Positions 3,592 through 21,360 of a DNA stretch of 33,466 nt are shown in pieces (position 1 is the first letter of the stretch; each line of letters begins with the position of its first letter). Origin of the DNA: Planctomycetota bacterium (GTDB taxonomy: Bacteria > Planctomycetota > UBA1135); NCBI GenBank assembly GCA_027020785.1, contig JALUVI010000184.1, positions 1-33,466 of the forward strand, read 5' to 3'. The notes under the pieces are model-generated. The model saw only the letters and a list, made by a program, of their open reading frames with translations, was not told where the DNA came from and did not search any database. Both the position numbers and the translations under genes were made by a program.

Positions 3592-4893
3592 ATGACGAGC
3601 ACCCTCCTCCGTGTCTTTCCGGTGCTGGCCCTCCTGGCCGGCCCCGCCTTCGCCCAGGGCGGCTTCCTCGGCGTGCGGCTCGGTGCCCCGGACGATGCGC
3701 AGGACGTGCCGGGCGCGTCCATCGCCGAGGTCCTGCCCCATGGCCCGGCCGCGATCGCCGGGCTCCGTTCCGGTGACCTGGTGGTCCGCGTGGACGACCG
3801 GCGGATCGCCGATGCGCGCTCGCTCGCCGAGGCCGTGGCCTCCTACGACCCGGGTGACGTGGTCGAGCTCGGAGTGGTCCGCGATGGCGAGGACGTCGTC
3901 GTCCCGGTGGTCCTCGGCAAGCGTCCCGCGGCGAGCGCCGGAGCCCGGGCCCGCGGCGGTCGCGGCTCGGGGCACGCCGCTTCGCCCCCCGACGACGCAG
4001 GGGGGGACGGCCGTGACCGCGCGCGTCGGGGCATCGTGATCCTGCGAGGCCCCGAGGGCGCTGTCCGTCTCGACGACGAGGCCCTCGCCGAGCTCCTCGA
4101 GGAGCTGGACCTGGATGGGTTGGAAGACCTCGTCGAATCGCACGGGCTCGAGCTCGGTGAGCACGAAGGCCACGGTTGGTTCGACCACGCCGAGGACGAG
4201 GCCCACGGCTGGCTCGACCGCGACGAAGACGAGGACCACGGCTGGTTCGACCACGACGAAGACGAGGCCCGCGGCTGGTTCGATCGCGACGAGGACGCGT
4301 GTCCCGAGTGCGACACCCAACGGGAACGCGATCGCATCCGCGAACGGCGCCACGGCGGCCCCGACTGGTCCGAGCGCGGCCGCCGCGGCCACGGGCCTTG
4401 GGGCGAGCGTTTCCGCCGCGGCGTGCGCCGGCCGCACGGCATGCCGATGGGCCCGGGCATGGACGTGCCCTTCGGCCTGCAGGGCCCCGGCTTCGACCCG
4501 CGAGCCCTGGAGGAGGTGAAGGAGATGATGGAGCGCATGCGCGCGATGCACGAGTCCATGCTCCGCGACCTCGAGCGGCGCCTGGAGCAGGGCGGTTGGA
4601 GCATGGGCTCGGAGGGGCGCGACCTGGTTCCCTTCGCACCGGGGGGATCCGTCTTCGACCTCCGGCTCCCCGAGGGGGCCCAGGTGCGGGCGCACGTCGT
4701 CTACCCCGCTTCCACGCCGGAGTCCGAGCGCGAACGACTGGTCGAGGAGGCGCGCGAGCGCTGGGGCGACGACGTCGAGGTCGAGTTCCGCGGCGACGCG
4801 ACGGTGATCTCGGTGCAGGTCGAGGCGTGGGGCGGCGACGACCCCGCAGCGCCGTCCCCGTGGCCGGACGAGGACGACACCGAGGATCTCTGA
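3592..4893 (+). CDS. Secreted PDZ-domain protein with acidic 11-aa tandem repeat and Arg-rich segment
   Basis: Signal peptide MTSTLLRVFPVLALLAGPAFAQ; PDZ GFLGVRLG...VLPHGPAAIAGLRSGDLVVRVDDRRIAD; four GWFDxDEDE-type repeats. Confidence 0.88.
   Translation: MTSTLLRVFPVLALLAGPAFAQGGFLGVRLGAPDDAQDVPGASIAEVLPHGPAAIAGLRSGDLVVRVDDRRIADARSLAEAVASYDPGDVVELGVVRDGEDVVVPVVLGKRPAASAGARARGGRGSGHAASPPDDAGGDGRDRARRGIVILRGPEGAVRLDDEALAELLEELDLDGLEDLVESHGLELGEHEGHGWFDHAEDEAHGWLDRDEDEDHGWFDHDEDEARGWFDRDEDACPECDTQRERDRIRERRHGGPDWSERGRRGHGPWGERFRRGVRRPHGMPMGPGMDVPFGLQGPGFDPRALEEVKEMMERMRAMHESMLRDLERRLEQGGWSMGSEGRDLVPFAPGGSVFDLRLPEGAQVRAHVVYPASTPESERERLVEEARERWGDDVEVEFRGDATVISVQVEAWGGDDPAAPSPWPDEDDTEDL
4168..4299 (+). 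repeat. Four tandem 33-nt units encoding [GAD]-[HR]-G-W-[FL]-D-[HR]-[AD]-E-D-[EA]
   Basis: Units at 4168-4200, 4201-4233, 4234-4266 and 4267-4299: GHGWFDHAEDE/AHGWLDRDEDE/DHGWFDHDEDE/ARGWFDRDEDA. Confidence 0.95.
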
Positions 4894-18770: not shown

Positions 18771-18852
18771 GGCCACTCCGCCTGGGGCGGTCTGGGTGCG
18801 ATTTCCTTCCGTTTCGGCCAACGCCGGGGGGGGGCACGCGTAGACGAGGACG

Positions 18853-19536
18853 ATGAGCACGGCCCGCCGCCTCGAACTCGTCCCTTCTCCTGACGTCGGG
18901 GACGCGGAACGGCCCGCCAAGGGAGTCCAGGACTCCCCTGGCAGCCGCGAGGCGGAGGTCTGGGAAGGGCTCACCGACGAGGAGCTCTTCGTGCTCACCC
19001 GCGAGGGCGAGCGCGAGGCCTTCCGCATCCTGGTCGAGCGCTACGAGGGCCGCGCCCTCCACGTCGCCCGCGGCATCGTGGGCAGCATGGAGACCGCGCA
19101 CGAGGTCGCCCAGGAGGCCTTCCTCAAGGCCTATGCGGCGCGCGACCGTTTCGACGCCAAGCGCAGCTTCGCCACCTGGTTCTTCCGCATCCTGCGCAAC
19201 CAGGCGGTGGACCGGCTGCGGCGGCAGGCCCCGGGCACTCCGGGAGCGGCCACCGAACTGGTCGGCGACTTCGGCAGCGGCACGCCGCTGCCGGAGAGCC
19301 AGGCCTCCGCGGCGGAGCGCCGCGAACTCGTTCGCCGCGTCCTCGACGCCCTGCCCGGTCCCTTCCGCGAGGTCCTGGTGTTGCGCGAACTGGAGGGGCT
19401 GGCCTGCACCGACATCGCGCGGCGGCTCGGCACCACGCCGGGCACGGTGCGCTGGCGTCTGCACCACGCCCGCAAGCTGTTCCGGGAGCACTGGGAACGC
19501 ACCCTCGGCAAGGAAGAAGGAGGGGAGGCCCTGTGA
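18853..19536 (+). CDS. ECF-type RNA polymerase sigma factor
   Basis: EAFRILVERYEGRALHVARGIVGSMETAHEVAQEAFLKAYAARDRFD...FATWFFRILRNQAVDRLRR and region 4 LREVLVL-type LDALPGPFREVLVLRELEGLACTDIARRLGTTPGTVRWRLHHARKLFRE. Confidence 0.96.
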   Translation: MSTARRLELVPSPDVGDAERPAKGVQDSPGSREAEVWEGLTDEELFVLTREGEREAFRILVERYEGRALHVARGIVGSMETAHEVAQEAFLKAYAARDRFDAKRSFATWFFRILRNQAVDRLRRQAPGTPGAATELVGDFGSGTPLPESQASAAERRELVRRVLDALPGPFREVLVLRELEGLACTDIARRLGTTPGTVRWRLHHARKLFREHWERTLGKEEGGEAL

Positions 19537-20144
19537 TGCGCTGCGAAGTCGCCCGCGAACTCCTGCCGCTGCACGTCGGCGACGACCTGCCGCTGCCGCA
19601 GGCCCACCGTCTCGAGGAGCACCTCGAGGGCTGCCTGCTCTGCGCCGACGAGTACGCCGTCTTCGCCGACGCGCGCGCCGACCTGCTGTCCCTGGCCGAG
19701 GAACTGCCGCCCCGAGGTTCGCTTTGGGAGGGCATCGCCCCGGGCCTGGACGCGTCCGCCGAGGCCGGGCCGGACCCGGCGGGGGCCCCGCGTCGCCGCC
19801 GCTTCCTGGGCTGGGGCGGGCTCGCCGCCGCAGCGGCGCTCCTGCTCCTCTTCGGGCCGTGGCGTGGCCAGGGCCTGGACGACGGTGCCGCCGTCGGGCC
19901 GATCGGACCCGTCGGCCCGTCCGCGCCGCCGACGCTCCAGGCCGGCATGACTTCGCCGGTGGACGCCTCGGGCCGGCCCTTGATCATCGAGGCCAGCCCG
20001 GACGACCTCCGCGCCTTCCTCTCCGGGGGCGGCGCCTGGCAGGCCGAGGTGCCGTTGGTCCCGACCGCCGGCGAGGTCCTCCCCGTGGCCGAGCCGGTGG
20101 GCGCCAACCAGCCGCCGCCCGGCGGCCGCCGCGGGCGGTTCTAG
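19533..20144 (+). CDS. Zinc-finger (ZAS-like) transmembrane anti-sigma factor
   Basis: 4-nt overlap with the sigma gene; MMRCEVARELLPLHVGDDLPLPQAHRLEEHLEGCLLC (Hx3Cx2C), single TM FLGWGGLAAAAALLLLFG. Confidence 0.88.
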   Translation: MMRCEVARELLPLHVGDDLPLPQAHRLEEHLEGCLLCADEYAVFADARADLLSLAEELPPRGSLWEGIAPGLDASAEAGPDPAGAPRRRRFLGWGGLAAAAALLLLFGPWRGQGLDDGAAVGPIGPVGPSAPPTLQAGMTSPVDASGRPLIIEASPDDLRAFLSGGGAWQAEVPLVPTAGEVLPVAEPVGANQPPPGGRRGRF

Positions 20145-20163
20145 GGCCGCGACCGCTCCCGGG

Positions 20164-21360
20164 ATGCTGCTCCCCGCTTGCGCCCTCGCGTTCGCCGCGC
20201 TCGCCCAGGAGCCGGTCGTCCCCCAGGCCGACGAGCCCCAGGCCCTGGCCGCCTTCGAGGCCGAGGTCCAGCGGCTCTACCTCGACCTCGTGCCGAGCCT
20301 GGTCGAGGTCCAGGCCCGGGTCCGCGGCGGTGCGGAGGGGCCGGTCCGCATCCTGTTCACGGCCGGGCTGGTCCTCGACGACGCCGGCCTCCTGGTCTCG
20401 CCGGTGTTCGTGCCCCCGGGAGCCCGGCCCGAGGAACTCCCCAGCTTCTCGGTGGTCCGCGCCGACGGCGAACGCTTCCCCGCGCGCCTCCTCGACTACG
20501 ACGACTCGTTGCGGCTCGGTCTGCTCCGCGCCGACGGGCTGGTCGGCATGGCGCCCGAGCTGGCGCGCAGCTCCGAGCTCGAGCCCGGCGCGCTGGTGGT
20601 CGCACTCGGCAACGCCCACGGCCTCTTCGGCTCCCTCTCCGTCGGCTTCCTGGTGGACGGCTTCCGTTGGGTCGGCGGCCGCGGCCCCCTGATCCAGACC
20701 ACGGTGCCGGTCCGCCCGGGCGACGCCGGCGGTCTGCTCGCCGACCGGCGCGGTCGCGTGGTCGGCCTGCTCACACGGCCCACCGACGACGCCTCGGAGC
20801 CGGCGGCGGGGTCCGAGTACGGCGGGCCCCACCATCCCGGCCTCGAGGCGACCGCCCTGGCCGGCGAGGGCATCGGCTTCGCCGTGCCGATCGAGTTCGT
20901 CCTCGCCACCTTCTCCGAGCATTGCGGCGACGTCCGTTTCGGCCGCCGGTTCCTCGGGGTCGAGGTGCGGCATCGTCTCGAAGTGGACCAGTGGCGGGGT
21001 GAGCCGCGGCGCCGCTGGGTGCTCGCCGTCCGGCGGGTCGTGCCCGGCAGTCCGGCGCACCGCGCCGGCATCCGTCGCGGCGACGTCGTGGTCCGGGTGG
21101 ACGACCGGCCGGTCAGCAGTCTGGCCGACCTCTCCTGCGCGCTGGCCGAGTGCGGCGCGGAGTCGCGGGTGGTGGTCGACCGCGACGGCTTGCTGCTCGA
21201 GTTCACCGTGGTCTTCGACGATGCCTTCGCGACGCGGGCGCACCGACGACCGCGGGACGGCTCCATCCCCCTCGAGGAGGCCGAGGCGCTCGAGCACGAG
21301 GACTCCTGGGTCGGCCGCCCCGCCGAGGACGAGGAGGAGACGGGCGACGACGGCGGATAG
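20164..21360 (+). CDS. HtrA/DegP-like trypsin-fold + PDZ protein lacking catalytic residues (pseudoprotease)
   Basis: Gap-free reading against the HtrA fold: IQTTVPVRPGDAGGLL (for IQTDA.INxGNSGGxL), GEGIGFAVPIE, PDZ VVPGSPAHRAGIRRGDVVVRVDDRPV. Confidence 0.88.
   Translation: MLLPACALAFAALAQEPVVPQADEPQALAAFEAEVQRLYLDLVPSLVEVQARVRGGAEGPVRILFTAGLVLDDAGLLVSPVFVPPGARPEELPSFSVVRADGERFPARLLDYDDSLRLGLLRADGLVGMAPELARSSELEPGALVVALGNAHGLFGSLSVGFLVDGFRWVGGRGPLIQTTVPVRPGDAGGLLADRRGRVVGLLTRPTDDASEPAAGSEYGGPHHPGLEATALAGEGIGFAVPIEFVLATFSEHCGDVRFGRRFLGVEVRHRLEVDQWRGEPRRRWVLAVRRVVPGSPAHRAGIRRGDVVVRVDDRPVSSLADLSCALAECGAESRVVVDRDGLLLEFTVVFDDAFATRAHRRPRDGSIPLEEAEALEHEDSWVGRPAEDEEETGDDGG

Follow-up and report, generated by a model that had tools for sequence, protein, structure and literature searches.

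A pseudo-HtrA as candidate stress receptor in an ECF sigma/anti-sigma factor cassette of Planctomycetota

The analyzed stretch of DNA (33,466 nt, in the following called the window) is part of a planctomycete MAG and contains a cassette of three genes, all on the + strand, which encode an ECF sigma factor, a zinc-finger membrane anti-sigma factor, and an HtrA+PDZ protein. Judged by its sequence, the latter is a true pseudo-HtrA. We hypothesize that it might be the receptor of an RpoE-like envelope-stress core, with a PDZ domain that docks the C-terminal Phe of the anti-sigma factor and shields its tail until barrels compete; this reading is tentative, and we give it slightly less than an even chance. 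The analysis directly yielded a conserved cassette, a dead catalytic triad, a single split from the active HtrAs, a C-terminal aromatic residue of the anti-sigma factor, a promoter, and the presence of both RseP and an active HtrA.

The cassette and the catalytic site of its HtrA-like protein

The genes and domains of the cassette are as follows.

18853..19536, + strand: ECF sigma factor, 227 aa; Sigma70_r2 (1e-18) and Sigma70_r4_2 (Pfam)
19533..20144, + strand: membrane anti-sigma factor, GTG start, with zf-HC2 (ZAS) domain (Pfam), one hydrophobic TM-like stretch, and periplasmic tail
20164..21360, + strand: pseudo-HtrA, 398 aa, with signal-peptide-like N-terminus, degenerate trypsin-like domain, and one PDZ domain; Trypsin_2 and PDZ (Pfam), AF2, Foldseek
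20953..21213, + strand: PDZ domain of the pseudo-HtrA, residues about 264-350, with a carboxylate-loop-like FLGV at its start; PDZ_2 264-349, PDZ_6 289-337

Coordinates, strand, the 4-nt overlap of the first two genes, and the 19-nt gap before the third had been reported in a preliminary description of this DNA and are correct. Sigma70 regions 2 and 4, the zf-HC2 His-Cys-Cys motif, the hydrophobic TM stretch (called by eye on the alignment), and the overlap of the genes identify the first two products as an ECF sigma/ZAS membrane anti-sigma pair. Residues C4, H30, C34, and C37 of the anti-sigma factor are invariant in the family. The ECF of the window shares 62-75% identity with its orthologues, and its relatives in the ECF alignment are Planctomycetota MAGs, including UBA1135.

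The product of the third gene matches DegQ, DegP, and DegS by sequence (PDB sequence matches), and its AF2 model (pLDDT 79.6) has the DegP/DegQ/DegS fold. DegP was the top Foldseek match, followed by lower-ranking DegQ and DegS structures, some of them with YQF peptides. A trypsin-like fold followed by a PDZ domain is the architecture of the HtrA/DegP (S1C) family; the His-Asp-Ser triad of that family is lacking, which makes the protein a non-peptidase homologue. Alignment to an active planctomycete HtrA and to the active paralogue of the same genome placed Phe82, Arg117, and Ala188 at the His, Asp, and Ser positions, exactly the replacements that had been proposed earlier. A profile alignment put Ala instead at the His position, again no His, with Arg and Ala at the Asp and Ser positions, and residues 60-100 contain no His at all. 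The paralogue (L105), which is encoded elsewhere in the genome and is unlinked to the cassette, is intact (NYHV, RHDI, GNSGG). The NCBIfam equivalogs for DegS and Do scored below their curated cut-offs (TIGR02037, 93 bits with a cut-off of 416; DegS, 62-64 bits with cut-offs of 408-423). The PDZ domain, previously described as intact, is indeed so, and its Gly265 is invariant across the family.

Proteolysis might still be possible if the catalytic residues were displaced or replaced by others, and single members of the family do retain Ser (L035, L085, L255, L257, L314), Asp (L043, L273), or Cys (L034, L264) at triad positions. However, His and Asp are retained together in none of the members classed as dead, and the Ser position varies freely among the orthologues (A, G, H, N, C, R, S). 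An intact alternative triad, named in the preliminary description as one of the findings that would overturn its reading, was searched for in 19 family members; in none of their alignment columns is a His, Ser, Cys, Lys, Glu, or Thr invariant, and an alternative triad or dyad was rejected because an invariant nucleophile or base is missing. Retained proteolysis is thus very improbable.

Conservation of the cassette and of the anti-sigma C-terminus

The pseudo-HtrA was present in 22 of the 26 family genomes, and in the first 18 family cassettes the 4-nt overlap of the ECF and anti-sigma genes was found without exception (18/18), with the pseudo-HtrA gene next. By means of anti-sigma profiles and neighborhoods, the survey was extended to 122 ECF/anti-sigma cassettes in which the anti-sigma factor is complete. 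The third gene encoded a dead HtrA in 50 cassettes from 25 family groups, a partial one in two, an active HtrA in three, a protein with HEAT and PDZ only in 35, and other proteins in 32. The linkage to ECF pairs, for which a neighborhood survey had been suggested, is therefore conserved. The module had been called unusual; this holds only with a qualification, as cassettes with a dead HtrA are what this ECF group commonly has among the sampled Planctomycetota.

An active HtrA directly follows the pair in a single family group (f39: L266, L294, L300), and the anti-sigma tails of that group are non-aromatic (R, P, H). The HEAT/PDZ-only cassettes represent the sister families f5 and f8 (L092-L099, L101-L103, L107-L117, L121-L144), in which a HEAT-like + PDZ protein replaces the HtrA. 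In families f2 and f4, both proteins are present, one after the other. Two UBA1135-type genomes (L090, L091) contain the ECF/anti-sigma pair without an HtrA.

In a tree of HtrA-like proteins, 51 dead and 14 active sequences were separated by one branch (support 96). This is compatible with a single origin of the dead HtrAs, in a tree that holds just 14 active HtrAs and some long branches. For close pairs of pseudo-HtrAs, dN was 0.2-0.35 and dS was saturated or near 3 (YN00; the ratio is readable only where dS is unsaturated). The pseudo-HtrAs are under purifying selection. A loss confined to one genome was rejected in view of the 22 family genomes and the cassettes across the phylum. The missing catalytic residues of the window sequence could also be those of a decaying or mis-assembled htrA gene without function; however, the reading frames are intact phylum-wide, dN is far below dS, and the split from the active HtrAs is a single one. 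Because the gene recurs in the family genomes and dN is so low, it is neither a sequencing error nor a decaying gene, and we consider decay improbable in the extreme.

A second conserved feature lies at the very end of the anti-sigma factor.

20130..20141, + strand: anti-sigma tail R-G-R-F-COOH, proposed PDZ ligand; aromatic end in 39/50 pseudo-HtrA cassettes

Beside dead HtrAs, the last anti-sigma residue is Phe in 33, Tyr in 5, and Trp in 1 of the 50 cassettes, whereas just 2.4% of the background ORF ends at the same loci (n = 658) are aromatic and 1.4% are Phe. The penultimate residue is D, S, E, or N in 38/50. As the residues just upstream align poorly between families, the terminal residue stands out. 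In five dead-HtrA family groups the tail is not aromatic and ends with Arg (f24, f36), His (f34), Ile (f38), or Leu (f89). The anti-sigma factors of the HEAT/PDZ-only cassettes end with Arg in 30/35 cases, those of the UBA1135-type genomes without HtrA end with -PRR, and the "other" cassettes have mixed ends, aromatic in 6/32, with at least one of them (L267) cut by the contig end. Aromatic tails without an HtrA also occur (L268, L270, L325, L331, L099, L123). In L270 (f32), the anti-sigma factor ends with -LNF and no HtrA-like gene was found downstream; the promoter motif described below precedes 4/6 f32 cassettes. In L331 (f71), it ends with -GEY and the next gene encodes a membrane-anchored protein that is Spy/CpxP-like by eye.

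When dead HtrA and aromatic tail were compared on the ECF tree, six independent pairs tended in the expected direction (2.7 same, 0.1 opposite, 3.2 without difference), which is not significant; part of the correlation is thus shared ancestry. The Omp85 proteins of the family end with Phe in all complete cases (11/11). C-terminal residues are the ligands of PDZ domains, and the C-termini of barrels are recognized by DegS (PMC8103513); solved DegS-YQF complexes were among the structural matches of the pseudo-HtrA. From these sequence features we infer that the anti-sigma tail may be a PDZ ligand of the adjoining pseudo-HtrA and a mimic of barrel ends.

The promoter motif and the predicted regulon

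A dyad search upstream of the ECF genes yielded the motif C[CT]AAC-N16/17-CGTA. AAC in the -35 element and CGT in the -10 element are the general form of ECF promoters. Two exact copies are present in the window, among 18 exact sites in its genome.

18818..18842, + strand: predicted autoregulatory ECF promoter, CCAAC-N16-CGTA (family motif), 10 nt before the ECF start codon
3558..3582, + strand: second copy of the promoter motif, CCAAC-N16-CGTA (exact match)
3592..4893, + strand: secreted PDZ-domain protein, predicted to belong to the regulon, with its start 9 nt downstream of the motif; PDZ_2 5e-13

The PDZ protein contains acidic repeats (about DEDEDHGWFDHDEDEARGWFD) after its PDZ domain. 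Of 24 family members, 20 have the motif upstream of the ECF gene, against an expectation of 0.7 and with no occurrence on the reverse strand; phylum-wide, it was found in 63/124 cassettes (0.64 expected), including 28/31 of f8. Its distance to the start codon is conserved, usually 9-17 nt, which supports the ECF start at 18853.

The whole-genome motif counts were overall not above those of reversed-pattern controls. A regulon deduced from motif counts alone was therefore rejected, as many single sites would be chance occurrences, and sites were retained when they were close to a start codon and recurred before related genes in different genera. A scrambled-pattern control gave 16 downstream ORFs with one cross-genus pair; the real set was larger (52 ORFs). 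The motif precedes genes for a secreted M24 aminopeptidase (own genome, G002, G016, G023), an M1-like metallopeptidase (own genome, G001; called by its HEVGH motif, with no Pfam match on the partial frame), M16 peptidases (G001, G003, G006), PDZ proteins (own genome, G020, G013), TraB (G001, G023), a DUF3568 lipoprotein (G001, G003, G016), and an active htrA with intact TNAHV/A and GNSGG (G006, G013, G020). It was also found before genes for NfeD (own genome) and an SPFH protein (G004), and an M28 peptidase is likewise among the predicted regulon genes. It was not seen upstream of the active htrA of the window organism itself. As the predicted targets are mostly secreted or membrane quality-control proteins, they fit an envelope-stress regulon.

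Two further sites were noted. One copy lies 40 nt upstream of the start of a gene for a secreted thioredoxin-like protein (G000:C153, L353), which has an in-frame TGA at its first active-site Cys (GSDW-TGA-GYCK) and may encode a selenoprotein. Another lies 5 nt before the start of a second ECF sigma gene (G000:C240, L361) and might indicate a sigma cascade or be a chance site.

The regulon also bears on the possibility that the pseudo-HtrA is simply an output of the ECF, i.e., a non-proteolytic periplasmic chaperone that is linked to the pair only via autoregulation of the operon. The operon has its own predicted promoter, other secreted PDZ proteins share the motif, and chaperone activity of HtrA proteins is established (PMC12826053). 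However, neither the conserved aromatic tail nor its absence in lineages without a pseudo-HtrA would be explained, and we regard this possibility as rather unlikely.

A receptor model and its relation to known systems

The preliminary description had proposed a non-proteolytic sensor or scaffold, or else a substrate trap. The pseudo-HtrA itself and its linkage to ECF/anti-sigma pairs are borne out, and a binding role without proteolysis is favored by the intact PDZ domain, the C-terminal Phe of the anti-sigma factor, and the envelope-type predicted regulon. In the model, C[CT]AAC-N16/17-CGTA promoters would serve the ECF to transcribe its own operon and the genes for secreted quality-control proteins, and the transmembrane anti-sigma factor would hold the ECF. 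The secreted HtrA without catalysis would be the receptor, with a PDZ domain that binds the C-terminal Phe of the anti-sigma factor, which resembles the Phe ends of outer-membrane beta-barrels. In the absence of stress, the pseudo-HtrA would stay bound to the anti-sigma factor and shield its periplasmic tail, as RseB shields RseA. Under stress, unfolded barrels with exposed C-terminal Phe would compete with the tail for binding, at the PDZ domain or at the dead cleft, and the tail would be released. An active HtrA would then make the first cut in the anti-sigma factor, and RseP and cytoplasmic proteases would free the ECF. The site-2 protease RseP (TIGR00054) scored over the cut-off in 26/26 family genomes, including the own genome; together with the active HtrA elsewhere in the genome, this means that regulated proteolysis could proceed even though the linked HtrA is not catalytic. 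The PDZ-tail docking, the competition by barrels, the shielding, and the order of the cuts are what we infer from these features, and the sequence cannot decide whether docking shields or presents the tail.

The main rival of shielding is presentation: the pseudo-HtrA would bind the tail and bring it to an active HtrA, or activate that HtrA, in mixed trimers or as an adaptor. The tail and the PDZ domain are equally good evidence for this. In addition, a second, active HtrA is encoded further along the same operon, behind the dead one, in several cassettes (L254, L261, L264, L276, L314, L317, L305), and a pseudoprotease that activates an HtrA protease has a precedent in MamO, which activates MamE (PMC4794232). 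However, in most cassettes, that of the window included, no active HtrA is encoded in the operon. We consider presentation unlikely, though a serious competitor; if it were true, deletion of the pseudo-HtrA would hold the response off.

In its broadest form, the shielding model describes a pathway of the whole phylum. Stress would be received by a dead HtrA, whose PDZ domain holds the barrel-mimicking end of the anti-sigma factor until unfolded barrels displace it, and the two functions that DegS unites, sensing and cutting, would fall to separate proteins. This generalization is possible but somewhat doubtful. If true, it would be a general envelope-stress answer for much of Planctomycetota. 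The pseudoproteases would form a bacterial family that has been conserved for a long time and has a defined partner, and the sensor-protease DegS would have a naturally divided counterpart, in which PDZ ligand binding is separable from catalysis. ECF/anti-sigma pairs, HtrA stress proteases, and pseudo-HtrAs are already known separately. What appears to be new is an ECF/anti-sigma operon with a conserved third gene for a dead HtrA, together with the matching C-terminal aromatic residue of the anti-sigma factor. In the open-access literature searched (most subscription papers and all preprints were outside the scope), neither this combination nor any pseudo-HtrA next to an ECF/anti-sigma pair was found, though absence is not proved thereby, and no paper on the sensing of envelope damage by Planctomycetota was found there.

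Several known systems resemble the cassette in part. In Mycobacterium, sigE-rseA-htrA (Rv1223) has the same gene order of ECF, anti-sigma factor, and HtrA, and the HtrA is regarded as active. Mycobacterium HtrA structures were among the PDB and Foldseek matches, and their PDB entries name Ser-to-Ala mutants of the native protein. This system differs from the cassette of the window in lineage and in the anti-sigma factor. In Pseudomonas, the algU-mucA-mucB-mucC-mucD operon contains an HtrA-type gene and operates by RseA-like signaling; MucD is regarded as active. The magnetosome protein MamO is, like the protein of the window, a trypsin-like HtrA with a degenerate triad; it has a non-catalytic role and an active HtrA partner (PMC4794232). 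In contrast, MamO, which belongs to a clade of HtrAs from alphaproteobacterial magnetotactic bacteria and has a metal-binding His pair, acts in biomineralization in these bacteria (PMC4794232), whereas the setting of the window protein is ECF signaling.

The sigmaE-RseA-RseB-DegS-RseP system of E. coli shares with the planctomycete system an ECF with a transmembrane anti-sigma factor, RseP, a PDZ/HtrA fold for the periplasmic step, and a regulon of the envelope type (predicted in the planctomycetes), which in some planctomycete relatives includes htrA. In contrast to E. coli, the linked planctomycete HtrA is dead, the HtrA-type gene lies inside the operon, and the anti-sigma factor is of the ZAS type and carries a C-terminal Phe of its own. 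By analogy, we propose that the pseudo-HtrA may play the part of RseB, the periplasmic binder of the anti-sigma factor.
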